A DNA stretch of 41,361 nucleotides. It comes from a virus. Below, one piece after another: positions 3 through 41,361 of the stretch (positions are counted from its first letter, which is position 1; each line of letters begins with the position of its first letter). The stretch spans positions 1 to 41,361 of the IMG/VR virus record IMGVR_UViG_3300010413_000078; one strand, given 5' to 3'. The notes under the pieces are model-generated. The model was not told where the DNA came from. It ran no database searches and saw only the letters and a program-made list of their open reading frames with translations. The position numbers and the translations under genes are program-made.

Positions 3-134
3 AAATGCGGTGGATCGTGTACGCGCATCCTGTCACAGACATCCCCGCCGCGTGGGTTCGGTGAGTCTGCGATTGACCGTGTCAACAAGAATTGGGACAA
101 GCCACCTGGTCTGAAGGGCAAGCGAGGCAAGTGA
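3..134 (+). CDS. C-terminal part of a small ORF cut by the left edge
   Basis: An open frame enters from the left edge (first codons K-C-G-G-S-C) and stops at TGA 132-134. That stop overlaps the ATG of the CHAP gene as TGATG, an arrangement typical of translationally coupled phage genes. The visible 43 residues are basic (ends GLKGKRGK), contain two cysteines spaced CGGSC, and match no family I know. If the right edge joins the left edge, the frame continues back to GTG at 41346, giving a complete 49-residue protein. The function is unknown. That it is coding is inferred from the overlap and from the junction continuity only. Confidence 0.45.
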   Translation, partial: KCGGSCTRILSQTSPPRGFGESAIDRVNKNWDKPPGLKGKRGK

Positions 135-646
135 TGTGGAGACAAGAGCTTCCGTTTGAGCTTGTGGCCTTGCTGTGTGCCAAAGATACTGTCGGACTAC
201 GTGAGCAAGCAGGTAACCGTGGTCCAGCTATTGAGGTGATTCAGCGAGCCGCTAACGTATCCATTGGCGCACCTTGGTGTGCAGCGTTCGTCAACTGGTG
301 CGCCGAATATGCATCTGTCGTAAAAAATGAACGAAGTCCACTTGAAAGCGTGGAGTTCCAGGCGTACGTACCCAGTTACCATAAATGGGCAAAGGATAAC
401 GGTCTCACAATCCCGTTTGAAGAGGTCTATCCAGGTTCCATCTTTCTTAAGTGGAGCCTCGACAAACGACGGTGGGGACACATGGGCTTTATTGAGTACC
501 ATATTAATGACGGTGTCGTGAGACAGATTAAAACAGTTGAAGGTAATAGTAACGATACAGGTAGTAGTGAAGGGCTGGAGGTCGTAAGACTGGTCAGAGA
601 TGTTGATGTTGGAACGTACGCTTTCATTGATTGGAGGAAGAGATGA
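134..646 (+). CDS. CHAP-domain peptidoglycan hydrolase (candidate endolysin)
   Basis: 170 residues forming a single CHAP domain, the NlpC/P60-like cysteine amidase/endopeptidase fold that cleaves peptidoglycan. With the start at ATG 134, the catalytic cysteine is C49 in G-A-P-W-C-A-A-F-V, the histidine is H116 in W-G-H-M-G, and the third polar residue lies in V-E-G-N (E136/N138). The conserved N-terminal helix with an R-G-P segment precedes the cysteine, as in phage CHAP proteins of this size. ATG 134 has GCGAGG about 8 bases upstream and overlaps the previous stop (TGATG); an in-frame TTG at 92 is less likely. No signal peptide or cell-wall-binding domain is seen, so export would need a holin; the next gene is a membrane protein. 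It sits at the head of the rightward operon, away from the tail genes where an endolysin is often found, so an entry-related role cannot be excluded. Confidence 0.82.
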   Translation: MWRQELPFELVALLCAKDTVGLREQAGNRGPAIEVIQRAANVSIGAPWCAAFVNWCAEYASVVKNERSPLESVEFQAYVPSYHKWAKDNGLTIPFEEVYPGSIFLKWSLDKRRWGHMGFIEYHINDGVVRQIKTVEGNSNDTGSSEGLEVVRLVRDVDVGTYAFIDWRKR

Positions 647-933
647 CGCAGGGACCACAAGTATCGGCCTTGTCGCCCATCGAATGGGTACTGCTCAGTA
701 TGCTGGTGTTCCGTGCGACTGGGCTGGCTACGTACCCGCTATGGGTTTTTTATGCGGTACTGTTTGGCTGGGTTGCCTTGTTGTACACCGACCTGCATCG
801 CAGGAAGAAAAAGTTGCTACAGATGAAGGAAAAGATTGACGCGGACCTAGACTACCTGCTTGACAGGTTACCAGAACCGCCAGATCCGTTGAACGACAGC
901 AACGTATTCTTCAACTCCAAGGAGATGCATTGA
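643..933 (+). CDS. Small two-helix membrane protein, possible holin partner of the CHAP enzyme
   Basis: 96 residues. The ATG at 643 overlaps the CHAP stop (ATGA) and follows a strong GGAGGAAGAG ribosome site. Two hydrophobic segments (about residues 12-30 and 34-52) are followed by a basic stretch (HRRKKK) and a charged, probably helical C-terminal tail ending in a proline-rich segment. A short membrane protein directly behind a peptidoglycan hydrolase is the usual holin arrangement, but there is no family-specific motif, so the holin role is inferred from position and topology only. It could instead be a superinfection or membrane-stress protein. Confidence 0.6.
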   Translation: MTQGPQVSALSPIEWVLLSMLVFRATGLATYPLWVFYAVLFGWVALLYTDLHRRKKKLLQMKEKIDADLDYLLDRLPEPPDPLNDSNVFFNSKEMH

Positions 934-1235
934 ATAAGCCACTACTGGAGAAGAGGCGGTGCAAAGCTTGTCATCAATATCTGCCTGAGAAGAAGCCTGA
1001 TGGCGGGAATATTGTATACGGCGAAGGCACTGGATACCTTGCGTTGACACCTGAAGGTCGTAAGCTTATGATGAAGAGTATGATAAGTGAGTGGCAACGC
1101 AATATCATCGAAGTATGCTCTTACGTCATAGGCAAAGGAGTCAAAGGCGAGCTAACGGCAGACGATAGTGTCTATGTCGCGGCCAGCGAACTTCTGCAAG
1201 CCGCCATTGACAATTTCCCGAAGAGGGTAAAGTAG
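930..1235 (+). CDS. Hypothetical protein with one CxxC knuckle
   Basis: 101 residues, starting at TTG 930 inside the end of the membrane-protein gene, with AAGGAG five bases upstream, which makes the unusual start credible. The N-terminus has C-K-A-C-H, half of a zinc-ribbon-like site with no second pair in the chain. The rest is predicted helical. Its stop TAG overlaps the next gene's GTG start. I do not recognise the family. Its place between a lysis-like pair and nucleotide-related enzymes does not define a role. Confidence 0.55.
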   Translation: MNKPLLEKRRCKACHQYLPEKKPDGGNIVYGEGTGYLALTPEGRKLMMKSMISEWQRNIIEVCSYVIGKGVKGELTADDSVYVAASELLQAAIDNFPKRVK

Positions 1236-1855
1236 TGAGCGATTGGATCGAAACGTTCTCCGGCAAGAAGTTCCTGCCGCAAGCACCAGATCCACGCAAG
1301 ATCGATATTGTCGATATCGCACACGCACTGTCAATGAAGTGTCGGTACGGCGGCCACACCAGACAGTTCTATTCCGTGGCCCAGCATAGCGTCATTGTCA
1401 GTACCGTTGTGCCAGAAGAGTACGCACTTGAAGGCTTACTGCACGACGCTGCAGAGGCCTATATGCCGGATATACCCAGGACAATGCGTACACACCTGGT
1501 TGGGGCAGATGAGTTTGAGAATCAGATTCATTTAGCAGTTGCGCACAGGTTCAGTCTTGTGTATCCTTATCCAGAGATTGTCGTTCAGGCTGACGACAGG
1601 ATACTGGTGGACGAGGCGCGTGACCTGATGCATAGTTGTGGGGCAGAATGGGAATGGGAATCGTGGGGCTTGTCAGGGAAAGGATACGGCATTAAGGTGA
1701 AGCCGGTACTGCCCAAAGAAGCGCACGAGATGTTCGTTACACGTTATGCCTCACTCATTGAGACCAGAGACGTAGAAGACCCGTGGCACTTCAAGTCTAT
1801 TATGAAAGAGAGGAGAACGAGTAATGACAAGAGAAGAGCTAAGTCGTACTCTTGA
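1235..1855 (+). CDS. HD-superfamily phosphohydrolase (YfbR-like nucleotidase type)
   Basis: 206 residues. The metal-binding HD signature is visible: H51 in S-V-A-Q-H-S, H70-D71 in L-L-H-D-A-A-E, and an aspartate around D120/D121 in A-D-D-R. This is the pattern of small HD hydrolases such as YfbR, which dephosphorylate deoxynucleoside monophosphates; phage versions are thought to adjust the nucleotide pool. Substrate specificity cannot be read from the sequence. The GTG start at 1235 follows GAGGG and overlaps the upstream stop by one base. The last about 25 residues are very basic and overlap the next gene by 32 bases. No thymidylate synthase, dCTP deaminase or polymerase lies nearby, so the pathway context is missing. 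Confidence 0.8.
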   Translation: MSDWIETFSGKKFLPQAPDPRKIDIVDIAHALSMKCRYGGHTRQFYSVAQHSVIVSTVVPEEYALEGLLHDAAEAYMPDIPRTMRTHLVGADEFENQIHLAVAHRFSLVYPYPEIVVQADDRILVDEARDLMHSCGAEWEWESWGLSGKGYGIKVKPVLPKEAHEMFVTRYASLIETRDVEDPWHFKSIMKERRTSNDKRRAKSYS

Positions 1856-2219
1856 CGTAGTGTTCCAGGAATGCAGAATGTTGCGCGATGCCGGACAGAA
1901 GGAGTACGCCCGTCAAGAAGAAAATGCGTTTGGCAACTTTGAGCGGATTGCCGCATGGCTTGACGGCATGACTATCAACAGGGAGACTGTAGTACTCGTC
2001 TACGCACTGAAGCATTTGGATGGCATTCTATCGTACCTGAATGGACATAGGAGCCAGCGTGAGGATGTGCGTGGACGGGTCAATGACCTGATAGTGTACC
2101 TGGGCATCCTACGCGGCATGATCGATGAGACCGAAGGATATGGGCACACCTTTGACGATGCATTAGATGACGATGACTTCGACTACGATGAACTTATACC
2201 ACTGGAGATACCAAGATGA
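1824..2219 (+). CDS. Conserved phage protein, helical with acidic tail
   Basis: 131 residues. The body contains Q-K-E-Y-A-R, N-A-F-G-N-F-E-R, Y-A-L-K-H-L-D-G and R-V-N-D-L-I-V-Y-L, a pattern I recognise from a widespread small phage protein family of unknown function found among early genes. The C-terminus is a run of Asp/Glu (about residues 110-125), suggesting a nucleic-acid-mimicking or metal-binding tail. The ATG at 1824 has GGAG seven bases upstream and lies inside the end of the HD gene. It is coupled to the next gene by ATGA at 2216. Confidence 0.6.
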   Translation: MTREELSRTLDVVFQECRMLRDAGQKEYARQEENAFGNFERIAAWLDGMTINRETVVLVYALKHLDGILSYLNGHRSQREDVRGRVNDLIVYLGILRGMIDETEGYGHTFDDALDDDDFDYDELIPLEIPR

Positions 2220-3301
2220 GCGACTGGGGAAACACTTGGACGGACGAGGAAAAGGCTAAGCTGGTCAAGATGAATAACATGAACTACTCTTGGGCAGAGA
2301 TCGGTGATATGCTCGGGCGATCCGGGAAGTCGTGCAAGAGTAAGTTCGAAAGGATGGTCAAGAAGGGCGTGACCGCTGAGGCTAAAGCGATCAGACCAGA
2401 ATTTGCTGAAGACTACCATTGGCCGGAAGAGGTTGACTGGCGAGAATGGATTGATATTTGGGGCGAACAGCTTGAGAAAGAGAAGAAGATAGACCCCATT
2501 AATACCAAGCTTACCATTAACTTGAAGAAAACTGACGAGCCGATCAATATAGCATTCGCAGGCGATCTGCACATGGGCGGCGGGTTCACCAACCATAGTC
2601 TGATCAGGAGCACAATTGAGTTCATCCTGGACACGGACAATATGTACGTTGCACTGGTTGGCGACGTTATTGAAGGGTTCCTGCCCAACTTCCGGTCCGC
2701 AGAGGCCAGAGAGCAGATGCCAGCCAGCGTCAAGGCACAGATCAATGCGTATGGCTCGCTGGTGAACGAACTGTTGTCTGAAGGTAAGCTGTTGTGTGCG
2801 TCGTGGGGCGACCATGACGGGATGTGGTTTGAGAAGGCTGTAGGTATGAATGTCATCAAGCATACAATACACGACAGGGTGCCGTACTTCAGTGGACGCG
2901 GCTTGGTGACTGTTATGCTGGGCGGCCAGAAATACTACATTATCGCCAACCACAGGGAGAACAGCAGGAGCCAGTGGAACAGGACACACCCGTCCCGGCG
3001 ACAGTTCGACAAGTTCTTCCCAGCCGATATTATGGTGACAGGGCACACGCACTCGCCGTCCTACCAGATGGACTACCAGTTGATGGACGCGAGAGAGGCA
3101 GGACTTGACATTGGCGGCAAGGTATGGTATGTTGTTACAGGCACCGCGAAAACGGGGCCGGACGTATACACAATTCGTGGCTGGAATAAGGGAGTGTTCG
3201 GTGTACCGACAGCCACACTGTTCCCGGACAAGCACGACATCGAGATGCATTCCAGTCCGTTGTACGCTCACGCATTCACGGAGGGCATCAAAGCACTATG
3301 A
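2216..3301 (+). CDS. Calcineurin-like metallophosphoesterase with N-terminal Myb/SANT-like segment
   Basis: 361 residues. The metallophosphoesterase signature is complete: D117 and H119 in G-D-L-H, D150 in G-D-V-I, G-D-H-D (198-201), H246 in A-N-H-R, and H277/H279 in G-H-T-H. These enzymes use a dinuclear metal centre to cleave phosphodiesters or phosphomonoesters. Residues 1-55 (W-T-D-E-E, W-A-E-I-G-D-M-L-G-R-S, C-K-S-K-F) look like a Myb/SANT helix-turn-helix, so the enzyme probably acts on or near DNA. A charged linker (about 60-105) joins the halves. It overlaps its neighbours by ATGA at both ends, so it is part of the early operon. Whether it is a nuclease, a phosphatase or a DNA-end processing enzyme is open. 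Confidence 0.8.
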   Translation: MSDWGNTWTDEEKAKLVKMNNMNYSWAEIGDMLGRSGKSCKSKFERMVKKGVTAEAKAIRPEFAEDYHWPEEVDWREWIDIWGEQLEKEKKIDPINTKLTINLKKTDEPINIAFAGDLHMGGGFTNHSLIRSTIEFILDTDNMYVALVGDVIEGFLPNFRSAEAREQMPASVKAQINAYGSLVNELLSEGKLLCASWGDHDGMWFEKAVGMNVIKHTIHDRVPYFSGRGLVTVMLGGQKYYIIANHRENSRSQWNRTHPSRRQFDKFFPADIMVTGHTHSPSYQMDYQLMDAREAGLDIGGKVWYVVTGTAKTGPDVYTIRGWNKGVFGVPTATLFPDKHDIEMHSSPLYAHAFTEGIKAL

Positions 3302-3549
3302 CAACGCAGGACAGTATTGACGAGATCCTGGAGCTAATGAGAACCGTTGTCGATAAGAAAGGGACAACCCATATCTCAGACGGCCACTGCACGTTCGGTG
3401 TCGAGTATCCATCGCTATCCAGACAGAGCGATGGTATAACATACTTCTCGGCACTGGACTTACACGGGAGATTCTTTTTTACTGACAAGACGATGAAGGG
3501 AGTGTTACAGCGTGTACGTAAACACATCAAAGAGAAGCACGGACTATAA
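3298..3549 (+). CDS. Small hypothetical protein
   Basis: 83 residues, ATGA overlap with the phosphoesterase gene. It has an amphipathic helix at the N-terminus, a middle with many aromatic residues (F-S-A-L-D-L-H-G-R-F-F-F) and a basic helical C-terminus (R-V-R-K-H-I-K-E-K-H). No family is recognised. The 38-base overlap with the next gene is long but in a different frame. Confidence 0.5.
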   Translation: MTTQDSIDEILELMRTVVDKKGTTHISDGHCTFGVEYPSLSRQSDGITYFSALDLHGRFFFTDKTMKGVLQRVRKHIKEKHGL

Positions 3550-3979
3550 CCGTACCTACGTACGACCAGGGTGGCTACCTGAAGATCAAAGGAGATGGCG
3601 AGTGGTACAGGAGTTACCACGTTACGAAATTTCTAACGATGGGCTGGTAAGGGTAAGGGCTGACGAAAACAGGCTACCGTTGTACGTTATGCAGCCAAGG
3701 TGGACAAAGGGTAGCCTGTGCGTGTTTTTGTTGGGGGCTGACGGCCGAGATAAAGTCAGGAGGATCTACAGGCTCATGGAACAATATTGGCCGAAAGCAT
3801 GGTATCCGTCTGGGTGGCAAGCACCAGTATACCAGCCTGACCCGCGCAAGGACAGAAGGTTCAAGATTACAGAAGTGCAACGTCAGGAGATAATGCAGTC
3901 TGGCTTACGACCACCACAATTGGCAGAGCTATATCCGTTGAACGAACGCACAATAAGACATATCAAGTATGGCAGGTGA
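3512..3979 (+). CDS. NUMOD4-like protein with C-terminal helix-turn-helix, no HNH nuclease
   Basis: 155 residues. Residues about 29-95 read W-R-V-V-Q-E-L-P-R-Y-E-I-S-N-D-G-L-V-R-V, matching NUMOD4, a DNA-binding module usually found in front of HNH homing endonucleases. The C-terminus (E-V-Q-R-Q-E-I-M-Q, A-E-L-Y-P-L-N-E-R-T-I-R-H-I) resembles a short helix-turn-helix. No HNH histidine-asparagine motif exists, so cleavage activity is not expected. The start is uncertain. GTG 3512 keeps the conserved first tryptophan of NUMOD4; GTG 3602 has the better ribosome site (AAGGAG) but loses that tryptophan. It could be a DNA-binding regulator derived from a homing-endonuclease module. Confidence 0.65.
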   Translation: MYVNTSKRSTDYNRTYVRPGWLPEDQRRWRVVQELPRYEISNDGLVRVRADENRLPLYVMQPRWTKGSLCVFLLGADGRDKVRRIYRLMEQYWPKAWYPSGWQAPVYQPDPRKDRRFKITEVQRQEIMQSGLRPPQLAELYPLNERTIRHIKYGR

Positions 3980-4196
3980 CTGGAAGACGGTGCGTGAGAT
4001 ACCACGGTATGAGATTGCGCCTGACGGGAAGGTACGTATCCGCGATGGCTTTCGTAACGCCGGATACGTCGTTCAGAGACTTAGACGAGGGAAGCTAGGC
4101 TCTGAATACGTTTACCTGTTCCAAGATGGAACACGGTACAAGAGAAGTATCAATTCACTCATTGGCCGATACTGGCCAGAAAAGGAAGATGCCTAA
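3969..4196 (+). CDS. Second, shorter NUMOD4-like protein
   Basis: 75 residues, paralogous to the N-terminal half of the preceding protein: D-W-K-T-V-R-E-I-P-R-Y-E-I-A-P-D-G-K-V-R-I against W-R-V-V-Q-E-L-P-R-Y-E-I-S-N-D-G-L-V-R-V, and both end the module with Y-W-P. It lacks the helix-turn-helix tail. It overlaps the upstream gene by 11 bases and the next by one (TAATG). The tandem pair suggests local duplication. Function unknown; DNA binding is inferred from the module. Confidence 0.6.
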   Translation: MAGDWKTVREIPRYEIAPDGKVRIRDGFRNAGYVVQRLRRGKLGSEYVYLFQDGTRYKRSINSLIGRYWPEKEDA

Positions 4197-4501
4197 TGCC
4201 TTACACTCAGCAATGCCACGTAGTAGCATCTGGATCGTTCCCTGACGAGGGGCTGTTTATGTTTGTGCCTAGCAAGACGTACTTTGATTTCGACCAGGAG
4301 CCTGGCAAGGTACTGCGTGTTGCACTTGACCCTGATAAATACCATATCGCTGAGCTACCACCACAAGGTTGGTGGGTAGCTGGACTATTGGCTGGAGAAG
4401 ATTGCTCCAGTGAAGCATTCAAGGGATGTTTGCAATCTATTGACGAGATTTACAACAGCCGAGGTAAAGCCTATGCACTTGCACTGGAAGACGAAGGCTA
4501 A
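4196..4501 (+). CDS. Small hypothetical protein
   Basis: 101 residues, with its start in TAATG at the end of the previous gene. It has an acidic pI by eye, two cysteines near the C-terminus (D-C-S-S-E and G-C-L) and no signal or membrane segment. No recognised family. It is co-transcribed with the rest of the rightward operon. Confidence 0.5.
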   Translation: MPYTQQCHVVASGSFPDEGLFMFVPSKTYFDFDQEPGKVLRVALDPDKYHIAELPPQGWWVAGLLAGEDCSSEAFKGCLQSIDEIYNSRGKAYALALEDEG

Positions 4502-4784
4502 GAACCAGAGAGCACAGATGGCAATCTATGAGCAACTAGCAAATATATCGTCCAACGTCGCTGACTTGGCAGTGTTCCAGAGCCAACTATCACAGGACAG
4601 ATATAGCGAGCTTGTTGAATGGGTTGAAGATATACAGAAATGTATTGAGCTAACACAGTGTAAGCATTGTGATGGAGAGGGTAACGCAGAAGGGCTGGAC
4701 GTTAAGTGTGCGGCCTGTGCGGGGCTTGGTGTACGGATCTATATATCTGATCCGCCACTACTCATCCAATTGCTCAGTGATTAG
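4473..4784 (+). CDS. Small protein with DnaJ-type CxxCxGxG zinc motifs
   Basis: 103 residues from ATG 4473, which has CGAGG eight bases upstream; ATG 4518, just after the upstream stop, is an alternative. A helical first half is followed by C-K-H-C-D-G-E-G and C-A-A-C-A-G-L-G, two CxxCxGxG elements as in the DnaJ cysteine-rich zinc domain but only one pair. Such mini zinc proteins occur in phages and are thought to bind zinc for protein contact. It is the last gene of the rightward operon, and its TAG overlaps the stop of the converging minus-strand gene. Confidence 0.6.
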   Translation: MHLHWKTKAKNQRAQMAIYEQLANISSNVADLAVFQSQLSQDRYSELVEWVEDIQKCIELTQCKHCDGEGNAEGLDVKCAACAGLGVRIYISDPPLLIQLLSD

Positions 4785-19901: not shown

Positions 19902-22741
19902 CGTCTTATTACGCTTCCTATCACCGAGTCGTTTTCGTTCGGCGTAAATGTCGTCCAAGTGGTCGTACCCAAATATTCCCAACCGCCAGAAATTGCACGG
20001 CGTATAGCTACAATGTTCTTTGCTAACGTAGCCAAGCCATCTCCAAACCTGGTTGTATCAGTGCCAACGTATGCCAAGTACCTAGACAGCGATCCGGTAC
20101 CTGTGGCCAAGTCGGTCAGTGTAATTGAGCCTGCCGGCACGGTGAAAGACGCGCCGTTCGGGTGAGTGAATAGCCAGTCCTCCCCACCCCAATACATCCA
20201 GCCGTCGTCCGTTCCCTCAGCACCGCCACTTGAGTTACGTACAGGCGATACAGGGATATATCCACCAGAAGCTATCTCACCTGTTGGCGGCAATTCATCG
20301 TCGTCCAATACGTTGCTCACCTCTGCCAAGAACAACGCACCGTATCCAGAGGTTGTAATGGCAACTGCTCCCACGTATACCAAGTTGCTACGCCTGATGC
20401 TAGTGAGGTGTATTGGGCTAGTGGTAGCCATTGTCTGGGCCAACACTTCCGACAAAGTCGGATAGTCAAACATATCAGCCTTAACCTTCACACCGATGAC
20501 ATCATCGGTCTGAGCGGACCAAGCCATTGACACCAATCCGGTATATGAGACCTCTGGCACGAACAAGACAATGGTATTGGCACCGCCAGCAGGCAGATCC
20601 GGGACAGTACCAGTAGTGACAGAGTCAGACACCATGTCCGATTTGACGCCTACTTTGTTAACTGAAATAATACCAACATTATAAGTAACCCCAGGCTCGA
20701 CGGGCCCGATCATAGCCAACTGCGAGCCTGACGATGCTTGGAATGGATATACAATCCCTGATAGTTGCCATTCGCTTGCAGAGGCTTTCTTGTAGAATAC
20801 TTTTTCATGGTCCAGATTATACGCAGCACTCTGTGTCCAAGTCGCTTTGATTTGCTGGACCATTCGGTCGCCACTGTCAAGCGTTAGCCTGGTAGTATCG
20901 TCCGACAGCAACGTCAAGCTGGTGGCAGACGGAACGTACAGTGGGCTTGGAATATTCGTGCCAGGGTTCTCGTTCGGCAGATACGTGCCGGCTGTCGTGT
21001 AAACGTTGGAATCGTATTCCTGTAGTGTCAGGTCTATCGTGTTGTCTTCAGCAATGCCAATTGACATTACCCAAAACAACTTCTGATCCCAGCCAGCACT
21101 ATCGTCTGTCAGCTTGACAACGCTACCGATATTCAGCTTCAAGGCTTCTTCGCGTGCCTTCAGCTTAACAACAGTATTGTTGCGTGCCTCTTTGAGCATG
21201 ATTTCGGCAATACCAAACGCTACAGCAGGATGGCTGCTCAGCGGCAATTCATACTTCAGCCTTGACTCTATGTTATTGTCTTCAGTAAGGTACGGATTAG
21301 AGGCACCTGGTTCTGGGTAGATGATAGTGTCTACGGTCCAGTCGGCATGAGGGTTCAGAAACGTGATTTCTACAACGTTTGGTGTATCTTCTGATCCAGG
21401 CCTGAATATTTCTATTGAGTCTATGTTCGTACTGGCATCAAGCTCAAACGTTTCTGCTGTTTCAGGCTGTCTGATCCACAGGAAAAACTTGCCGTTCTCC
21501 CAGTACAGGCTACCGCGCATTGCCGCCAAAAGTGCTTCGATGTTGGCCCTATGCCCAGCATCGGTCATCAGCGCACCTGATGCGATATACGGGTACGTAT
21601 TGGCCTCGTCCACAATCTCCCACGACATATTCGTGTCAGCCGATGGGAAGTTAGTAGTCACGCCGATCAGCAGTAGTGAGCCTGACAGCAGGGACGGGTT
21701 GGACGCAAAAGTATAGTCGCCAGCGTTTGCGCCAGATGTAATGCGTAGCGTGTCACCAGCCTTTGCGTATGTCAACAGTGCAACAGTACTTGGGTTGGCC
21801 CAGTCATCGGCAGTAGCAACTGTTGTGCTACCTGCCGTGTTCAGCCCTGTACCTGACGCCACAACAAGATCGAATGCGTCAGAGCTACCGTCGCAATAGT
21901 TTGCAGCGGAGATAAATGATGTAGAGTCAATCTCTGTTGAGTCAATACCGAGACCGTACCTGTCGCTAGTGAGATAGTCGTACAGGTTGAGTGCCGGATT
22001 GTCTGACGCTGCATAAGTGACTGGTTCGTCGCGTATATCCGCCACCTTTATACCGTCAACAATGAATCTAAGGTCTGGCAGTGCGGAGAACCGAGCATTA
22101 TTTGCATCGTCAGCGAAGTCATACTTGAACTTGTTGACCATGTAGGCCAAACCGTTACCCTTGGATGTGGTCGGCCAAGCCTGCGATGACGCATCGTTCA
22201 TCATCGGGTCAACAGCGTTGTCGGCACTTGTGCCTGTATGGGCATTGTACCAATATAGACCTTGGTACTTATAGGCAACGCCATTGCCACTGCCACCGTT
22301 GCCTGCAACGCTGTACGTGCCATTCGTAAGGTCGTTGGCCAGACTGACGCCGCCTTCGGACGCCAAGATAACGTTCTTGACTCCGCCAATACCGTACCCG
22401 TTGTCAGGTGCCACACTGAGTACGTTGACGGTATAGAGATATTCGCCGTTTGTCCCGCCTGCGAATATGTCAGCGATTACTGATCCAGTCTTAACGTTCG
22501 TGCCGTACAGGATCGGGAGTGCCGCCTGAGTGCCCCTTGTTGTGGACTGGATGCCCATCTGGTCTTTGGCAAGCTTCTCTTCAAGTGCGGCTTGTGCCAG
22601 GAGACTGCCAGCGTATGCTATAGTCAGTGCGCCTACGTTATAGGCAATCAGAGCTAACCCGGCAAGCGGAGGGGCAAAGATAGCCAGTGCGGTACCGGCC
22701 AACATCAGTAGTGAGCCAAACGCTCCCTTTTGACTACCCAT
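19898..22741 (-). CDS. Tail tip / central fibre protein (lambda gpJ-like)
   Basis: 947 residues. A glycine- and alanine-rich hydrophobic N-terminus (about 8-55) precedes the J-like region: L-P-I-L-Y-G-T (about 74-81), D-E-P-V-T-Y-A-A-S-D-N-P-A-L-N-L-Y-D-Y-L-T-S-D-R-Y-G-L-G-I (about 238-268), and fibronectin-like segments after about 600. These are the landmarks of the phage tip-attachment protein that closes the tail tube and contacts the receptor. It follows the three small tip genes in the usual order and overlaps the preceding gene as TAATG. Confidence 0.8.
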   Translation of the reverse strand: MGSQKGAFGSLLMLAGTALAIFAPPLAGLALIAYNVGALTIAYAGSLLAQAALEEKLAKDQMGIQSTTRGTQAALPILYGTNVKTGSVIADIFAGGTNGEYLYTVNVLSVAPDNGYGIGGVKNVILASEGGVSLANDLTNGTYSVAGNGGSGNGVAYKYQGLYWYNAHTGTSADNAVDPMMNDASSQAWPTTSKGNGLAYMVNKFKYDFADDANNARFSALPDLRFIVDGIKVADIRDEPVTYAASDNPALNLYDYLTSDRYGLGIDSTEIDSTSFISAANYCDGSSDAFDLVVASGTGLNTAGSTTVATADDWANPSTVALLTYAKAGDTLRITSGANAGDYTFASNPSLLSGSLLLIGVTTNFPSADTNMSWEIVDEANTYPYIASGALMTDAGHRANIEALLAAMRGSLYWENGKFFLWIRQPETAETFELDASTNIDSIEIFRPGSEDTPNVVEITFLNPHADWTVDTIIYPEPGASNPYLTEDNNIESRLKYELPLSSHPAVAFGIAEIMLKEARNNTVVKLKAREEALKLNIGSVVKLTDDSAGWDQKLFWVMSIGIAEDNTIDLTLQEYDSNVYTTAGTYLPNENPGTNIPSPLYVPSATSLTLLSDDTTRLTLDSGDRMVQQIKATWTQSAAYNLDHEKVFYKKASASEWQLSGIVYPFQASSGSQLAMIGPVEPGVTYNVGIISVNKVGVKSDMVSDSVTTGTVPDLPAGGANTIVLFVPEVSYTGLVSMAWSAQTDDVIGVKVKADMFDYPTLSEVLAQTMATTSPIHLTSIRRSNLVYVGAVAITTSGYGALFLAEVSNVLDDDELPPTGEIASGGYIPVSPVRNSSGGAEGTDDGWMYWGGEDWLFTHPNGASFTVPAGSITLTDLATGTGSLSRYLAYVGTDTTRFGDGLATLAKNIVAIRRAISGGWEYLGTTTWTTFTPNENDSVIGSVIRR

Positions 22742-27900: not shown

Positions 27901-29109
27901 TTATACGGCGGCCATCGCAATGCTCTTGCCCTGGAACGTATTGTCCACGGACAAGACCGCCATTCCGGTGTCTCTAGCAATGCTTCCGAGTGAAGTCATT
28001 GCGGCACCGGACAGTGTTACCGTTCCACCCGACAGAGTCCAGACAATGTCCGACTCCACGGTCCGCAGATGGTCGATCATAGCATCGTACGATGCAGTCG
28101 GGCCAAATACGGAGGCGTTAAGGTTGATCGTGCGCATACCCTCGGACAACGCCTTGCCGATTGAGTAGATCGTAGAGTTGGTCTCAATCCCGTTGTCAAT
28201 GCTGATCGACACAGACGAAATGTCGGCATCGATGCCCAGCGGACTTCCGCCACGCGTGATGGTGTCGCCCAGCAAATTCTCGTACGACGTTCCGATGGCA
28301 GACCCGTGAGAGCCACTGCCGAGCAGCGGAATCCCGAGATCGCCTTCACGGTCGTCGTAGGACGCCGATCCGTAGATGACCATCAGCGTATCGGTACCAC
28401 TCTTGACAATGATGTCTCCGACACACTCAGCATCCAGCAGAGCCGCATCAATCGACGCAAACGAAGCAGACGTAGTCTGGGGAGTAGTGCCGCTAAGTCC
28501 AACACCCTCAGACGTACCAGCACCAACATCCTCGATGGTCAATGTCTGCGTTGTGTCTGCTGTCGATGTGCTCTCAACCGTCAGTGTACCACTGGCAGAC
28601 GGCTGGTCCACCTGATACGCTCGCAGTTTACGGCACATGTAGTCCAAAGTAACGACAATCGGGTCGCCACTCTCAGGCTCGCCGCCGAGATTGACACTAT
28701 TGATCTTGGCACCGGTGGCAACGTAGTAAATATAGGAACCGCCACTTTGGACGCCATCGTCACCAGATCGTGCCCTACCGACGACAGTATGCGAAGCCGG
28801 AAGCTGACCATCAGTCAGACGCTTCATTCCGTCGCCTGCGGCATCCAGGGGATCGCCACTTCCGTTCACGAAGAACCTTTGCAGGTCGTACGTAACAGAG
28901 AACTCGTGTGACTCGGTGCCAGAGTTAAAGTTGACTACATCGGGGGTACCGATGTTCCCTCGCGGACTGACAGACGCTTGCGGAGAGACCGAAAACGACT
29001 GAACGGCATCGCTATACAGAAGCCATGCCGGATCATCCGGGGGCGTATTGTAAGTGCTTTCGCGCACAAACTCCAATCGGAGGGCGCGAATTCCACTCTC
29101 GTAAGACAT
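27901..29109 (-). CDS. Major tail tube protein
   Basis: 402 residues, beta-rich (alternating Thr/Ser/Val/Asp), with the opening G-I-R-A-L-R-L-E-F-V-R-E-S-T-Y-N-T-P-P-D and a long Ig-like C-terminal part. It lies between the tail terminator and the chaperones, the expected place. The larger size than typical tube proteins (about 200-250) suggests added surface domains. The start TAATG overlaps the 80-residue gene and has a strong GGAGA site identical to that of the 14029 gene. Confidence 0.75.
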   Translation of the reverse strand: MSYESGIRALRLEFVRESTYNTPPDDPAWLLYSDAVQSFSVSPQASVSPRGNIGTPDVVNFNSGTESHEFSVTYDLQRFFVNGSGDPLDAAGDGMKRLTDGQLPASHTVVGRARSGDDGVQSGGSYIYYVATGAKINSVNLGGEPESGDPIVVTLDYMCRKLRAYQVDQPSASGTLTVESTSTADTTQTLTIEDVGAGTSEGVGLSGTTPQTTSASFASIDAALLDAECVGDIIVKSGTDTLMVIYGSASYDDREGDLGIPLLGSGSHGSAIGTSYENLLGDTITRGGSPLGIDADISSVSISIDNGIETNSTIYSIGKALSEGMRTINLNASVFGPTASYDAMIDHLRTVESDIVWTLSGGTVTLSGAAMTSLGSIARDTGMAVLSVDNTFQGKSIAMAAV

Positions 29110-36717: not shown

Positions 36718-37992
36718 TTAGATCATTGTCCACGGTGATTCTCTGCCAATCAAGATCGGGGCCACTGGTGTACCCTGCCGCTTCTGCTTGTCCTTCCACA
36801 TCTTTACAGCCATCGCTAGTGCGTCCACACAGTCATCGTGGACACCCTTCGGTGCGGAATACAGGACTCGCCCAGAATTCGGCAGTATCTGGTACTCGAA
36901 TGCCTCAAGCTCGTCAACTATCGGCCCTACCGGGAACGTGATTTCTTTTGTATTAATAGCTATCGCCAGCCCTAACATAAGATCCTGCTTCGACCTGGCA
37001 CCGCCAAACAGGTAACCCCTGAAGTTACGGTGCCCGTCAGTGTGGAGTCGTTCTATGAATTGGTCGCCGCTACCGGTCGAGTCAATCATAGCTGACACTC
37101 CACCTGTGATACTGTGTACCTTGGCGTACGTACTATCCCATGAATCCTGCCATCGATGGAACTGACACGTATCGCCATTCTCGTCCAACGCGATCCCGAC
37201 TGTCCAGTTATTGTGTTTGGCTACATCCCAGCCCCAAGCAAAAGGTTTACCGTCCGTCATCGGCCCAATACATTCCTGTATCGAAGTGATGCCGAACGGG
37301 TTACCGCCATCGTCGCCTGGCTCAGCAAGATATAGTTCCTTAAAAACCGGTTCCGGGTAAATCTTCTTCGCGTCTTCTATTTCCTTGTACGAAATGACGC
37401 CGGCCTTGGCCGCATCGAACGCCGTAATCTTGACGTAGTGCATATCGGGGTCGCCCTGTTGGGCAAGACGGGCCAAACGGTACATCCAGTTGGCGCGTCC
37501 CTTCACATTCCCGATAATCCGTACCGGTGCTTCCGTGGCAGTTACCGTGGACCGCAGTGCATACCATGAGTCGGGCTTCACACGGCTGGCCTCGTCCACC
37601 ACGGCACCGTATACATCTTCGCCGTACAGTGAGTCCGGCTTATCACCGGACTTGAACCAAATGTACGCACCGTTAGTCATCTTCAGGTACTTACGGCTTT
37701 CGTTCGCCGTATACATATTACTCGGGATCATCTCTTTGATCCGCCTGAACGCGATATCGGCCTGATCGGATACCGGTGCTACCCACCAGTAGTGTCTGCC
37801 TGGTGCACCCTCAAGTATCGCTTTCTCGCAAATCCATACCGCACAGCCGATGGTCTTACCGCTTTTGGTTGACGCCTCAATAATGGCGTACCTTCGTGTA
37901 TTGAAGATACCTTCTAGCTGTTTCTCGTATAGCCACGGGCGTACATAACCCAAACTGTTCTCAGGTGTGTCCCTGATAACCTCAACTGTCAT
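36718..37992 (-). CDS. terL: Terminase large subunit
   Basis: 424 residues. ATPase: Walker A E-A-S-T-K-S-G-K-T (39-47), Walker B V-V-D-E-A (131-135), and a coupling-like G-N at 161-162. RNase-H-like nuclease: D256 in W-G-W-D-V, D304 in M-I-D-S-T-G, and the aspartates of H-D-D-C-V-D-A-L-A (386-390). These drive DNA translocation and cut the concatemer. The gene is separated from terS by an inserted exported-protein gene, and its own ribosome site is weak (AGG at five bases). Confidence 0.9.
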   Translation of the reverse strand: MTVEVIRDTPENSLGYVRPWLYEKQLEGIFNTRRYAIIEASTKSGKTIGCAVWICEKAILEGAPGRHYWWVAPVSDQADIAFRRIKEMIPSNMYTANESRKYLKMTNGAYIWFKSGDKPDSLYGEDVYGAVVDEASRVKPDSWYALRSTVTATEAPVRIIGNVKGRANWMYRLARLAQQGDPDMHYVKITAFDAAKAGVISYKEIEDAKKIYPEPVFKELYLAEPGDDGGNPFGITSIQECIGPMTDGKPFAWGWDVAKHNNWTVGIALDENGDTCQFHRWQDSWDSTYAKVHSITGGVSAMIDSTGSGDQFIERLHTDGHRNFRGYLFGGARSKQDLMLGLAIAINTKEITFPVGPIVDELEAFEYQILPNSGRVLYSAPKGVHDDCVDALAMAVKMWKDKQKRQGTPVAPILIGRESPWTMI

Positions 37993-38009
37993 ATATGCCT
38001 GCCATCACA

Positions 38010-38030
38010 CCGCATTTCCCTGAAATGCGG
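38010..38030 (-). terminator. Perfect 9-bp hairpin between the inserted gene and terL
   Basis: CCGCATTTC (38010-38018), loop CCT, GAAATGCGG (38022-38030), all paired, directly after the stop at 38035 and before the terL start at 37992. No U-run on either strand, so it may be a processing or attenuation hairpin. Its place fits an inserted gene that brought its own 3' end. Confidence 0.55.
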
Positions 38031-38034
38031 GTGC

Positions 38035-39618
38035 TCATGGGCCATCGTCTTTCAGCCAGTACAATGCACGTTGCGATTGCCAGTAGCTCTGATTCCACTG
38101 TTTACCGCCCGACCCTATCCAGTATGTATGGTCCAGCATGGCATTCAGTATAGCGAGTGCACGGTCGCGGTACACCGGATCTTTCGTCTCGCGGTACAGC
38201 CACGCGAACGCTGGCATCAGCAGACCGTTCAGGTCGTTGGCGATTTCTCCACCGCACGATCCTTCCGTGTTCAGCGTCCACGAGACATACGGAAACAGCG
38301 TATCCGCGTTCCGCATCGTCCACAGCGTGTCTGCCGTCGCTTTGATGACGGGGAAAATCTGGTCGTACCGGTCGGTGGATACGTAGTCGTTGTACCGTTC
38401 CATCGCGTATAGCACGGCGTGGAACGCCTGAAAGTGTGCCTGCCCTCCACAGTACGAGGTCATACTCCATTTGCCGGGGCCGAGCGGTTGACGGTCGTAC
38501 CAAGCGAGCAGGCTATCGACACCAGCGCGTCCTTTGTCGGGGTCACGGTAAATTTCACCGAGGATCGTTCGGCCCTGTACCCGACCGTCCAGCCATTGTG
38601 TGCTGGTTAGCTGTCGCCACCACACATTGGTCAGTGCGGTAGTGAGTTTATTGTACGTGGTGATTGAGACAGGATCACCGGTACGGTAGTAGTGGACCAA
38701 CAGCCCCTCGGGGAATATGCGCCTCGGCTGGATGTACCCGTTCGGTACCCAGTACCAGTCACGGATCGTCTCAAGATAGGAGTCCCCTCTCACCGCCATC
38801 TCCTCGTTACCGGTACGCCACCAGTACTCGTAGTGCGACATCATCCGGTCGTAGTACGTGTAGAAGATGAAGGGGTCGGCACGGGTCGCCGTATCCCTGT
38901 CCGCTACGAACCTCTCCCAGAACTGGTCGCTGTATCGGAGGAACACGGAGTCGTAGTCCGCGAGCCGCTCCCACTCGTATGGCTGTTCGCCCTGTGCGAA
39001 CCCCATCATCCGGGCAATAGCCAGCGAGTCTGGGTCAAGTGGGACAGTCGGGATCGTATCCGGTGGGTCGGGGTCGGTTGGCGGGTCCGGCGGCTCGTAC
39101 CCCGTCACGTTCAGAATCCCCGTGTAGGACTCACCTGGCGACTGTCGGAATTCCAGTGATACTGGACCTGACAGTGTATTTGGCACCCGCCATCCATTCA
39201 ACACACCAGCATTATCTCCACCTAAAGTATAAGGTGCAGTCCTCTCTGAGTTTACGAGCGTTCCATTCACGTATATCCCCACACTGCCCTGTACGGTGGC
39301 ATCGGCCAGGAAAACGTAGATCGTCTCACCGACAGCCGCTGAGCCGAGTGCAATTGTGTCCGTCAGTGTGGCTGTATTCGACCGTGCAATGAACGGGCCG
39401 GTCGGCTCAGGCGGCGGAGTACAGGTCCAGCCGTCCGGGCATACCTCGACCGGGATCTCAACGGTCACGGTCTCCGGTGGGGCTTGGATCGTGTCCGGGA
39501 TGATATGCAGTACACCGGATTCCAGTCGGCCACCAGTAACCTCGACGGTCTGGCCGGTCAAGTGTGCCGGTACCAGAAGCGACAATGCAGCCAGTAACCC
39601 CAAAACCTTATATTTCAT
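38035..39618 (-). CDS. Secreted protein with toroid-like helical domain, inserted between terS and terL
   Basis: 527 residues. Clear signal peptide (K-Y-K, then L-L-A-A-L-S-L-L-V-P-A, cleavage near H-L-T-G-Q at about 22). A beta-sandwich-like part (about 75-175, with I-Y-V-N-G-T-L-V) leads to a Pro-rich linker (P-P-D-P-P-T-D-P-D-P) and a helical aromatic domain (about 205-527: Y-Y-D-R, Y-W-W-R-T-G-N, I-R-D-W-Y-W-V-P-N, E-G-L-L-V-H-Y, G-K-W-S-M-T). The last domain is paralogous to 17952-19901. Predicted exported; a polysaccharide-active or -binding role is inferred from the toroid-like pattern. Its place splits the terminase pair, so it behaves like a moron gene. Start with GAGG at six bases, two bases after the terS stop. 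Confidence 0.65.
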   Translation of the reverse strand: MKYKVLGLLAALSLLVPAHLTGQTVEVTGGRLESGVLHIIPDTIQAPPETVTVEIPVEVCPDGWTCTPPPEPTGPFIARSNTATLTDTIALGSAAVGETIYVFLADATVQGSVGIYVNGTLVNSERTAPYTLGGDNAGVLNGWRVPNTLSGPVSLEFRQSPGESYTGILNVTGYEPPDPPTDPDPPDTIPTVPLDPDSLAIARMMGFAQGEQPYEWERLADYDSVFLRYSDQFWERFVADRDTATRADPFIFYTYYDRMMSHYEYWWRTGNEEMAVRGDSYLETIRDWYWVPNGYIQPRRIFPEGLLVHYYRTGDPVSITTYNKLTTALTNVWWRQLTSTQWLDGRVQGRTILGEIYRDPDKGRAGVDSLLAWYDRQPLGPGKWSMTSYCGGQAHFQAFHAVLYAMERYNDYVSTDRYDQIFPVIKATADTLWTMRNADTLFPYVSWTLNTEGSCGGEIANDLNGLLMPAFAWLYRETKDPVYRDRALAILNAMLDHTYWIGSGGKQWNQSYWQSQRALYWLKDDGP

Positions 39619-39619
39619 G

Positions 39620-40162
39620 TCAGTCCTCTATCTCGTAGTCGGCCACGATCTCTTCGGCGTCACCGTTACGGTGTGCGGTTATTCTCGCGGATTGCGGGGT
39701 TGCACCCCCGATATTCAGGGTGAACACACCTGACTGGCCACGGTCGTTTTTGATTACTTGACGCAGGGCGAACTCTTCCGGCCACCGACGTTCCAGTATC
39801 CACGCGTTGGCTTGCCATTTCTGGCGGTCTTCACCGGCCTCCATGATCCGTCTGAGCAGGGTCTCCTTCATCTCGGATTCGGCGTCTTCGTATTCGGTGA
39901 GGAACCAGAGATAGTCGTCGTCGTACGGTGTGAGCCGTGCGTTCTCGTCGGCGTCCCTGGCATCGCGTACGTCCTGACCTTTGTACAGCCATTCGTAAAG
40001 TGTACGGCGAGAGACGCCCCCACGTTGCGCGGCCATGTCCATTGTGGCACCGTCTTTTAAGGCTTTGATAACTTTACGGGCACGTTTACGGTCACGCGAC
40101 ACTATCGGGGGGCGTCCCTGTTCCTTCGGTGTGTCCGGCTTAACCAGCGCGTTCTCTGTCAT
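39620..40162 (-). CDS. terS: Terminase small subunit
   Basis: 180 residues from ATG 40162 (GGGAG at nine bases; a GTG three codons upstream touches that site and is less likely). Helix-turn-helix at about 40-62 (T-M-D-M-A-A-Q-R-G-G-V-S-R-R-T-L-Y-E-W-L), helical middle, and a C-terminal tail. It recognises phage DNA and delivers it to the large subunit. Second gene after the late leader. Confidence 0.8.
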   Translation of the reverse strand: MTENALVKPDTPKEQGRPPIVSRDRKRARKVIKALKDGATMDMAAQRGGVSRRTLYEWLYKGQDVRDARDADENARLTPYDDDYLWFLTEYEDAESEMKETLLRRIMEAGEDRQKWQANAWILERRWPEEFALRQVIKNDRGQSGVFTLNIGGATPQSARITAHRNGDAEEIVADYEIED

Positions 40163-40163
40163 A

Positions 40164-40628
40164 TCAGACACTCCCGTGCAGTTCGGGGTCGTACGGCACC
40201 CAGGTCGGGTCGATCTCCGTGACCAGCGCGGCTGGCGCGTTCTGGGCCGCCAGTACGTCTGCCGGTGTTACCCCGACCTCCGGGTCACTCGGCGTTACGT
40301 TGTCCGGGTGGACAAATGGGTAGGTACGTGCTGGGTTCGTCAGCCAACTCGCGATATCACTGCGTAGCTGGGCCTTGTCCACCTCGCCACCGTCCATCGG
40401 TACCTCGTAGGCACCTGGCAGATCGGCACGGTTGGCCGCGAAACTGCCGATAACAGCCAAGTCCAGCAGATCGATCCGCTGGTCACTGTACGTGTAGTAC
40501 CGTGCGTCACCAGTATCCACGTAGATCGCCGGCTCGCCCAGCCGCAGTCGGCTCAATACAAACTTGATGATGGTCCTTTCCTTGACACTGAGCCCGTCAA
40601 ACGCCGTCTTCGTTATCCCGATCAGCAT
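40164..40628 (-). CDS. Hypothetical protein upstream of terS
   Basis: 154 residues: an N-terminal helical part (S-V-K-E-R-T-I-I-K-F-V-L-S-R-L-R-L-G), then acidic and Pro-rich. No recognised family. First well-supported gene of the late unit, 25 bases downstream of the tRNA-like RNA, with a GCGGGG site. Ends two bases before the terS ATG. Confidence 0.55.
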   Translation of the reverse strand: MLIGITKTAFDGLSVKERTIIKFVLSRLRLGEPAIYVDTGDARYYTYSDQRIDLLDLAVIGSFAANRADLPGAYEVPMDGGEVDKAQLRSDIASWLTNPARTYPFVHPDNVTPSDPEVGVTPADVLAAQNAPAALVTEIDPTWVPYDPELHGSV

Positions 40629-40637
40629 AATACCCCG

Positions 40638-40886
40638 CTATTCCTGGTGTGATGGAGACGGCGGGAATCGAACCCGCGTACTGGTGTTCACCGTTCGTGA
40701 ACCGTGAACATCGCCAGTCGATACCTGTACGTCCCCCCAAGTTATGTACGATGGCTGGTATGGCACAAATGGCGTGTATGGCTCGTATGGCACGTACCGG
40801 TAGTCCGAAGCCGGATACCTGCACTCCAAACATACCACCAGTCGCTCCAGTAAATCCAAAAGCCGGTCCATACGCTGGTCGTCCAT
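40638..40886 (-). CDS. Small Tyr/Pro-repeat ORF overlapping the tRNA-like RNA
   Basis: 82 residues from ATG 40886 (GGGGG at five bases). Helical start (D-D-Q-R-M-D-R-L-L-D-L-L-E-R), then an x-P-Y repeat (Y-V-P-Y-E-P-Y-T-P-F-V-P-Y-Q-P-S-Y), encoded by GCCATAC-type DNA repeats (about 40752-40800). Its last third is read through the tRNA-like gene, which is unusual. It could be a real leader protein or an ORF without a product. Confidence 0.35.
   Translation of the reverse strand: MDDQRMDRLLDLLERLVVCLECRYPASDYRYVPYEPYTPFVPYQPSYITWGDVQVSTGDVHGSRTVNTSTRVRFPPSPSHQE
40653..40736 (-). ncRNA. Mini tmRNA-like / tRNA-like RNA
   Basis: 84 nt. The acceptor stem GGGGACG (40736-40730) pairs with CGTCTCC (40660-40654), with a G3-U70 wobble and discriminator A73: the alanine identity elements. 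T-arm GCGGG-TTCGATT-CCCGC (40677-40661) is canonical. The 5' part, CAGGTATCGACTGG, resembles the reduced D-arm of tmRNA (GGATTCGACAGG in Bacillus) rather than a normal D-loop with GG. The middle folds as a long stem (GTTCAC / GTGAAC) with a 12-base loop, not a 7-base anticodon loop. No tag reading frame fits. CCA is not encoded (TCA follows). Alternative: a degenerate class II tRNA. Confidence 0.65.
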
Positions 40887-40916
40887 ATCAACCCCCACAA
40901 TGTAAAACCAGTCACG

Positions 40917-40946
40917 AATATAACAGGTTTGTGTAATGTTTCGCAA
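40917..40946 (-). promoter_or_regulatory. Late promoter of the minus-strand unit
   Basis: Minus strand: -35 TTGCGA, 18-base spacer ending TG-T, -10 TATATT. First promoter for the RNA and packaging genes; same class as those at 34.0 and 14.1 kb. Confidence 0.65.
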
Positions 40947-40967
40947 GTTTGTTTTTTACTATTTTTC

Positions 40968-40983
40968 TGGCACACTTCTTGCC
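40968..40983 (+). promoter_or_regulatory. Sigma-54-like promoter 1
   Basis: TGGCACACTTCTTGCC: GG at 40969-40970 and GC at 40981-40982, ten bases apart, matching the -24/-12 form TGGCAC-N5-TTGC. Reads rightward. GTATAC repeats and a TTACAT/ATGTAA dyad lie just downstream. A TTGCCT/TATACC sigma-70 reading is possible but poorer. Confidence 0.6.
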
Positions 40984-40985
40984 TG

Positions 40986-41016
40986 TTACATAGTATACCC
41001 TGTATACCCCATGTAA
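40986..41016. repeat. Nested dyad TTACAT...ATGTAA with two GTATACCC copies
   Basis: TTACAT (40986-40991) and ATGTAA (41011-41016) flank two GTATACCC copies (40993 and 41002). It lies at the predicted start region of promoter 1, so it could be an operator. No protein is assigned. Confidence 0.5.
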
Positions 41017-41020
41017 ACCG

Positions 41021-41060
41021 GTAAAAGAAAAAGAAAACTTAGTGTAAAAGAAAAAGAAAA
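41021..41060. repeat. Direct repeat of a 17-base A-rich block
   Basis: GTAAAAGAAAAAGAAAA occurs at 41021-41037 and 41044-41060, 23 bases apart. The A-runs would bend DNA or bind regulators. It is non-coding: the ATG and GTG here meet stops at once. Confidence 0.75.
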
Positions 41061-41136
41061 AAACACCGAGGAGAACCCTCGCCCGAAAAGCCGAGCCACA
41101 CCTCTGCCCACCAAGTCTGCGCCTGGTCTGTAACTC

Positions 41137-41152
41137 TGGCATAATTCTTGCG
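41137..41152 (+). promoter_or_regulatory. Sigma-54-like promoter 2
   Basis: TGGCATAATTCTTGCG: GG 41138-41139, GC 41150-41151, N10 exact. The A-T change at the last base of TGGCAC is tolerated in known sites. Rightward. Exactly 30 bases upstream of promoter 3. Confidence 0.6.
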
Positions 41153-41166
41153 TGCCCGATACACTG

Positions 41167-41182
41167 TGGCACAATCCTTGCA
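41167..41182 (+). promoter_or_regulatory. Sigma-54-like promoter 3
   Basis: TGGCACAATCCTTGCA: GG 41168-41169, GC 41180-41181, N10 exact; the best match of the three. A start near 41193 would lead into the operator array and then, if the ends join, the rightward operon. Confidence 0.65.
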
Positions 41183-41256
41183 TACGCCTGCCCGTGTGAG
41201 AAGTTAAATGGAGTTCACTGCGCCTGCGAGGAAGGGCGCACCCTGGACGCATTGTA

Positions 41257-41332
41257 CGTTGCATTTTGCAATAATCGGACGCCCCATTGCACAATGCAAT
41301 GTTGCCCCGGAGCTACATTGCATTTTGCAATG
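41257..41332. promoter_or_regulatory. Array of three 17-bp dyad operators
   Basis: CATTGCA-CAA-TGCAATG at 41285-41301 and CATTGCA-TTT-TGCAATG at 41316-41332 are perfect inverted repeats. CGTTGCA-TTT-TGCAATA at 41257-41273 is a weaker copy. Centres are 28 and 31 bases apart, about three helical turns. A fourth half-site (ATTGCA) follows at 41333. They lie between the sigma-54-like promoters and the first rightward ORF, so they suit a repressor, an enhancer-binding activator or a replication initiator. No phage-encoded binder is obvious. Confidence 0.75.
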
Positions 41333-41345
41333 ATTGCACAATATT

Positions 41346-41361
41346 GTGAAAAAAGGTGCGA
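41346..41361 (+). CDS. Possible 5' end of the ORF that re-enters at the left edge
   Basis: GTG AAA AAA GGT GCG then one base to the edge. Joining position 41361 to 1 keeps the frame open into the 3-134 ORF, giving 49 codons. No ribosome site is evident before the GTG. Depends on the ends being adjacent. Confidence 0.3.

Follow-up and report, generated by a model that had tools for sequence, protein, structure and literature searches.

Three elements of the type recognized by RNA polymerase carrying sigma-54 lie together in the control region of a tailed phage known from a virus record in IMG/VR, 41,361 bp long and classed as linear; the whole of this record is the stretch of DNA that was analyzed and is called the window below. 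Recognition of the three elements by sigma-54 is very likely on the evidence of motif, spacing and recurrence, and their use as host sigma-54 promoters for a predicted rightward phage operon is likely but unproved. Early and middle transcription in phages is normally ascribed to sigma-70 or to phage-encoded polymerases. If sigma-54 elements are broad among phages, the timing of infection would be coupled to the host activators that govern motility, pili, nitrogen use and envelope stress.

The control region and its three elements

The genes for terminase, portal, capsid and tail run leftward in this phage, from about 40,630 to 4,781, and at 92-4784 the + strand carries genes for an endolysin, an HD phosphohydrolase and a Myb/phosphoesterase, the distal end of a module on that strand that starts outside the contig. 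The left contig end interrupts a gene and the last bases at the right end, at 41361, are an SD-like AAAAAAGGTGCGA, so that the genome is not closed. The elements are intergenic and directed toward the right contig end, with the leftward gene block confirmed on their other side. From the elements to that end there is no confident gene start; as the contig stops there, the rightward operon lies outside the window, and the “early” character given to it in the initial annotation is an inference. Table 1 lists the features of this part of the window.

Table 1. Features at the right-hand end of the window
Feature	Position	Strand	Description
Terminase small subunit	39620..40171	-	PHROG 4102, E 6e-23; near start of leftward late operon
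Control region	40834..41361		leftward terminase/structural operon on one side, predicted rightward operon beyond contig end
Element 1, sigma-54 type (-24/-12)	40968..40982	+	TGGCACACTTCTTGC; rank 3 of cross-phage matrix in whole window
Two 17-bp A-rich direct repeats	41021..41060		GTAAAAGAAAAAGAAAA; between elements 1 and 2
Element 2, sigma-54 type	41137..41151	+	TGGCATAATTCTTGC; rank 2 of cross-phage matrix in whole window
Element 3, sigma-54 type	41167..41181	+	TGGCACAATCCTTGC(AT); rank 1 of cross-phage matrix in whole window
Three palindromes TTGCA-N3-TGCAA	41259, 41287, 41318 (41259..41330)		about 30 bp apart, downstream of element 3

Direct reading of the sequence confirms what had been claimed for these sites: three TGGCA-N6-TTGC elements on the + strand within 215 bp, each with exact GG-N10-GC spacing, two of them (elements 2 and 3) 30 bp apart and the first 169 bp from the second, for a total extent of 214 bp. 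All three match the pattern TGGCAY-R-N4-TTGC within about 215 bp, with the consensus Y and R bases present in every case. The base that follows TTGC is C, G and A in elements 1, 2 and 3, respectively, so that the consensus W is found only at element 3, and this departure in two of three sites counts against the reading as sigma-54 promoters. When the whole window was scanned with a matrix built solely from the sites of other phages, the three elements were the three best matches of the 41 kb.

That such a cluster could be an artefact of chance or composition is practically negligible: nothing speaks for it except that the window has few sites, and it is already refuted by shuffles, a Markov model, and the spacing controls and recurrence described in the next section. 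TGGCA-N6-TTGC occurs four times in the window, compared with 0.26 expected, and none of 100 shuffles reaches four; the fourth occurrence, at 22275 on the - strand, lacks the sigma-54 Y and R bases. For TGGCAYRN4TTGC, an order-2 Markov model predicts 0.10 sites per window, and the analytic chance of three same-strand sites in 215 bp is about 3e-9. The confinement of all three to 215 bp of a 41-kb sequence is a strongly skewed placement.

Recurrence of the motif and probable identity of the binding protein

A scan of IMG/VR for paired sites exactly 30 bp apart found 34 stretches, many of which are intergenic arrays of 2-8 sites. When the gap between sites was allowed to vary, pairs with sigma-54 spacing were found in at least 120 stretches of IMG/VR, compared with 12 in an otherwise identical scan with a spacer one base longer (largely simple repeats by appearance) and 2 with a spacer one base shorter. 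In the first scan, for which TGGCA and TTGC alone were fixed, the positions left free in the search proved to be those of the sigma-54 consensus, with Y at 92%, R at 84%, and W after TTGC at 92%. The 150 viral loci among the matches listed fall into 68 nucleotide groups, 56 of them with good arrays; there are at most as many independent origins, because many of these groups share a distant terminase family. Across 41 records the pattern has 231 sites and its reversed form 2, a ratio that is descriptive only because the records were selected for their sites; as a rule, the sites of a genome form a single cluster. In a family of 14 members, the motif columns are 97.0% identical, compared with identities of 82.7% at inner positions, 82.0% in the spacers, and 86.4% in the flanks; by this alignment the -24/-12 bases alone are held constant. 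One search of plasmids returned a single weak match.

The sigma-54 assignment made in the initial annotation is thus sustained by the consensus at unsearched positions, the strict spacing, the selective conservation of the -24/-12 bases, the recurrence of the sites in unrelated phages, among them phages of Vibrio and Pseudomonas, and their near-absence from haloarchaeal relatives. The same evidence bears on the possibility that the sites are operators of some phage- or host-encoded DNA-binding protein and the motif merely resembles that of sigma-54. Dense arrays and inverted pairs do look like operator arrays, and the window has in addition a separate triple of palindromes, operator-like in appearance and resembling a repressor operator triple, for which a regulatory function may be supposed. 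The sigma-54-type motif is nevertheless asymmetric, and a 15-bp consensus of fixed spacing that recurs in as many as 56 nucleotide-unrelated groups and agrees with sigma-54 at positions that were not searched makes a different binding protein improbable.

Relatives of the window phage offer a further view of how such sites are placed. Scans of IMG/VR with TerL or MCP as single proteins found none; relatives were recovered with a three-member alignment of the tail-module protein encoded at 27901-29109 (the gp27901 family). One of them (L267/G058; TerL 71%, capsid 62%) is a contig that begins inside TerS. A second, of 58 kb (L268/G059; TerL 55%, portal 48%, capsid 49%), has six sites and no match to the control pattern, with the sites more spread out than those of the window. 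Two of them, at 805(-) and 3819(-), face leftward genes and precede their longest predicted frames by about 80 bp; one of these genes is of primosomal type (PHROG 9327, DUF1376), and an exonuclease gene comes after the other. The gap that precedes the terminase operon has a divergent pair and, in addition, a third + site. This placement before replication-type genes is promoter-like, as judged from the predicted frames, and because the genes are co-directional with the sites and of primosomal type or linked to an exonuclease, it lends indirect support to early-gene control. In a further relative (L043; portal 40%, capsid 35%), a tandem pair 45 bp apart has a sigma-70-like promoter downstream, so that the main promoter at this locus may be a different one. 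Among eleven records of distant members, including haloarchaeal-type viruses, there is one non-consensus match, and Hardycor1 has no site.

Two minor features of these genomes may be mentioned. The tail-module protein encoded at 27901-29109 (-) is 39% identical to a protein of the haloarchaeal virus Hardycor1, which is also matched by the window TerL; the tail module is, on these protein similarities, shared across domains. In the 58-kb relative (L288, contig 37125-40013), a 963-aa TerL frame has an intein-like insert (PLDAMVYTPTGPVRMGDISVGDTV) after its N-terminal part.

Proposed promoter use and polymerase capture

Host RNA polymerase carrying sigma-54 would bind the three -24/-12 elements and wait there as a stable closed complex, from which an active host enhancer-binding protein would trigger firing. 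The three would then serve as tandem promoters for a rightward operon beginning just past the contig end, and this operon would be tied to a host program run by sigma-54, be it one for motility and pili, for nitrogen, or for the envelope or stress. That the sites are bound and transcribed from, which activator takes part, and which genes of the window phage are served are predictions in this scheme. As neither an RpoN gene nor one for an enhancer-binding protein (PF00158) was found in 50 array-bearing virus records, the window included, activation would have to come from the host. No NtrC-type activator site (GCAC-N7-GTGC) was found in the window.

The closed complex of the sigma-54 holoenzyme rarely opens by itself (PMC6028918), a property that fits promoter use and polymerase capture alike. 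A second way to read the clusters is as titration arrays, whose sites, regardless of orientation, would hold host sigma-54 polymerase in closed complexes that are inactive. As replication of the phage multiplied the sites, they would soak up the polymerase and shut down host sigma-54 programs such as appendage synthesis or the phage-shock response. Stable inactive complexes of the holoenzyme are on record (PMC6028918), as is the binding of many intragenic sites by it in Escherichia coli (PMC4591121). The architecture of the larger arrays also suits capture: many arrays of at least four sites, in several unrelated phages, strictly alternate between strands with a repeat unit of 43-50 bp (clusters 0, 42, 45, 46, and 48), and convergent stacks of this kind are better suited to holding polymerase than to promoting transcription. 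Strict two-strand alternation with the 43-50 bp unit is seen in L140, L125, L136, L149, and the L046 family, and not every such cluster can therefore be a plain promoter set. The sites are usually gathered at one locus, and in the main set no same-strand neighbors are closer than 25 bp.

For the window itself, such a role is unlikely. It has just three sites, all of one orientation and 169 and 30 bp apart, which makes promoters more likely there than polymerase capture. Other three-site arrays are mostly one-way as well (11 of 14 groups), and one-way arrays favor divergent gaps that face a gene: among 24 non-coding cases, 13 are in divergent gaps facing a + operon and 2 in convergent ones. A divergent gap between gene blocks is also the commonest arrangement among the other array-bearing phages. 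The single sites directly upstream of genes in the 58-kb relative are likewise at odds with titration.

Sigma-54 polymerase bound at the control region could also be a roadblock or silencer, for example by pausing the entry of T5-like DNA or by repressing a nearby sigma-70 promoter. Suggestive of this are the sites of T5-like vibriophages, located in the large pre-early gap beside DnaA and LexA-like boxes, and the sigma-70-like promoter that adjoins the tandem pair of L043. In the control region of the window, however, a scan of the + strand returned no sigma-70-type promoter at its threshold, and the single sites upstream of genes in the 58-kb relative would be left unexplained; this role is accordingly given a very low probability.

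Promoter use thus stays the preferred reading for the window, and the occurrence of site clusters in many unrelated phages indicates that some phages probably let the host sigma-54 signal time the switching on of their genes. A broader generalization, that sigma-54 clusters are a widespread and repeatedly evolved phage device for reading or sequestering host sigma-54 polymerase, with the alternating arrays as DNA sponges, is doubtful at present. If it is true, sponge arrays would represent host takeover by DNA sites alone, with sigma-54 polymerase diverted from host programs.

Host factors and comparison with known systems

For the window phage, a search through relatives returned scattered, weak ones and identified no host, and comparison of the window region with the DNA of isolate phages gave nothing useful. 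Such sites are present in two named groups of isolates. In the T5-like vibriophages they are found in the pre-early control region: VCPH, with a genome of 120 kb, has six, confined to 3 kb, and pVp-1 and KIT04 have three each. Pseudomonas phage vB_PpS_SYP has nine sigma-54-type sites. Like the window, these four phages carry perfect sites of sigma-54 type in control regions between genes, but their genomes, of 107-120 kb, are unrelated to it, and their sites are of mixed orientation. VCPH and pVp-1 differ further in their DnaA and LexA-like boxes: in these two, the gap beside the A2 gene (L262 2305-3577 in VCPH, L257 2466-3399 in pVp-1) brings sigma-54-type sites together with boxes of DnaA type and with LexA-like CTGTATAAATATACAG boxes, and so unites sites for several host regulators. 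Coliphage T5 is described in PMC7472727 as transcribed by sigma-70.

In cellular genomes, a three-site scan was restricted to irregular arrays because its matches were mostly true tandem repeats. RpoN is encoded in seven of the eight cellular bins with irregular arrays; in the remaining array-bearing bin, of Dadabacteria, no RpoN match was found. Near arrays, IHF-type sites are enriched (17, compared with 1-5 in permuted controls). They flank the arrays on both sides instead of taking their usual upstream position, and IHF was rejected as an upstream bender on that account. No LexA or CRP boxes were found near arrays in general, and DnaA boxes are scattered.

The phage sites share the -24/-12 consensus and spacing of bacterial sigma-54 promoters, as represented by an E. 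coli ChIP-seq set (PMC4591121); element 1 (CTGGCACACTTCTTGCC), for example, differs from the E. coli glnK site CTGGCACACCGCTTGCA of that set at 3 of 17 positions. They depart from bacterial promoters in being clustered in control regions, sometimes on alternating strands, and in having no known activator site. The nearest described system is that of the CtrA-site clusters of alphaproteobacterial phages, which are reported to have evolved independently at least five times and are treated under the name “lytic deferment” (Mascolo et al. 2022, PMC9437464). In both, sites for a master regulator of the host are packed into a single large gap, in several lineages; the gap often separates divergent gene blocks, of which the window shows the leftward one. 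For CtrA, binding and regulation have been proven by experiment (PMC9437464), whereas the regulator is here sigma-54, known from motifs alone, and the range of phages is far wider. The main text of PMC9437464 makes no mention of sigma-54 or RpoN in the spellings tried, and phage promoters that depend on sigma-54 were not described in the open-access literature searched. PMC3162934 calls sigma-54 a central controller of the bacterial exterior, and timing by the state of host appendages, by a logic like that of CtrA, would be an attractive analogy.

Several loci seen in the course of this work are of separate interest. In a Methylococcaceae MAG (L205 2516-2734), six one-way sigma-54-type sites lie between an ihfA-like gene and a primase-like element gene, and the locus is possibly an integrated satellite. 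Record CAKLQF020000004.1 (L265), labeled “Acinetobacter phage,” has a near-consensus sigma-54 site in front of a pilin gene and looks like host DNA labeled as phage. In the window, an 87-nt RNA gene at 40650-40736 (-), first in the leftward operon, matches Rfam tmRNA at both ends (61.7 bits) and is without the mRNA-like part; this mini tmRNA, consisting of the tRNA-like domain only, could be a phage-borne mimic or the remnant of an integration site.
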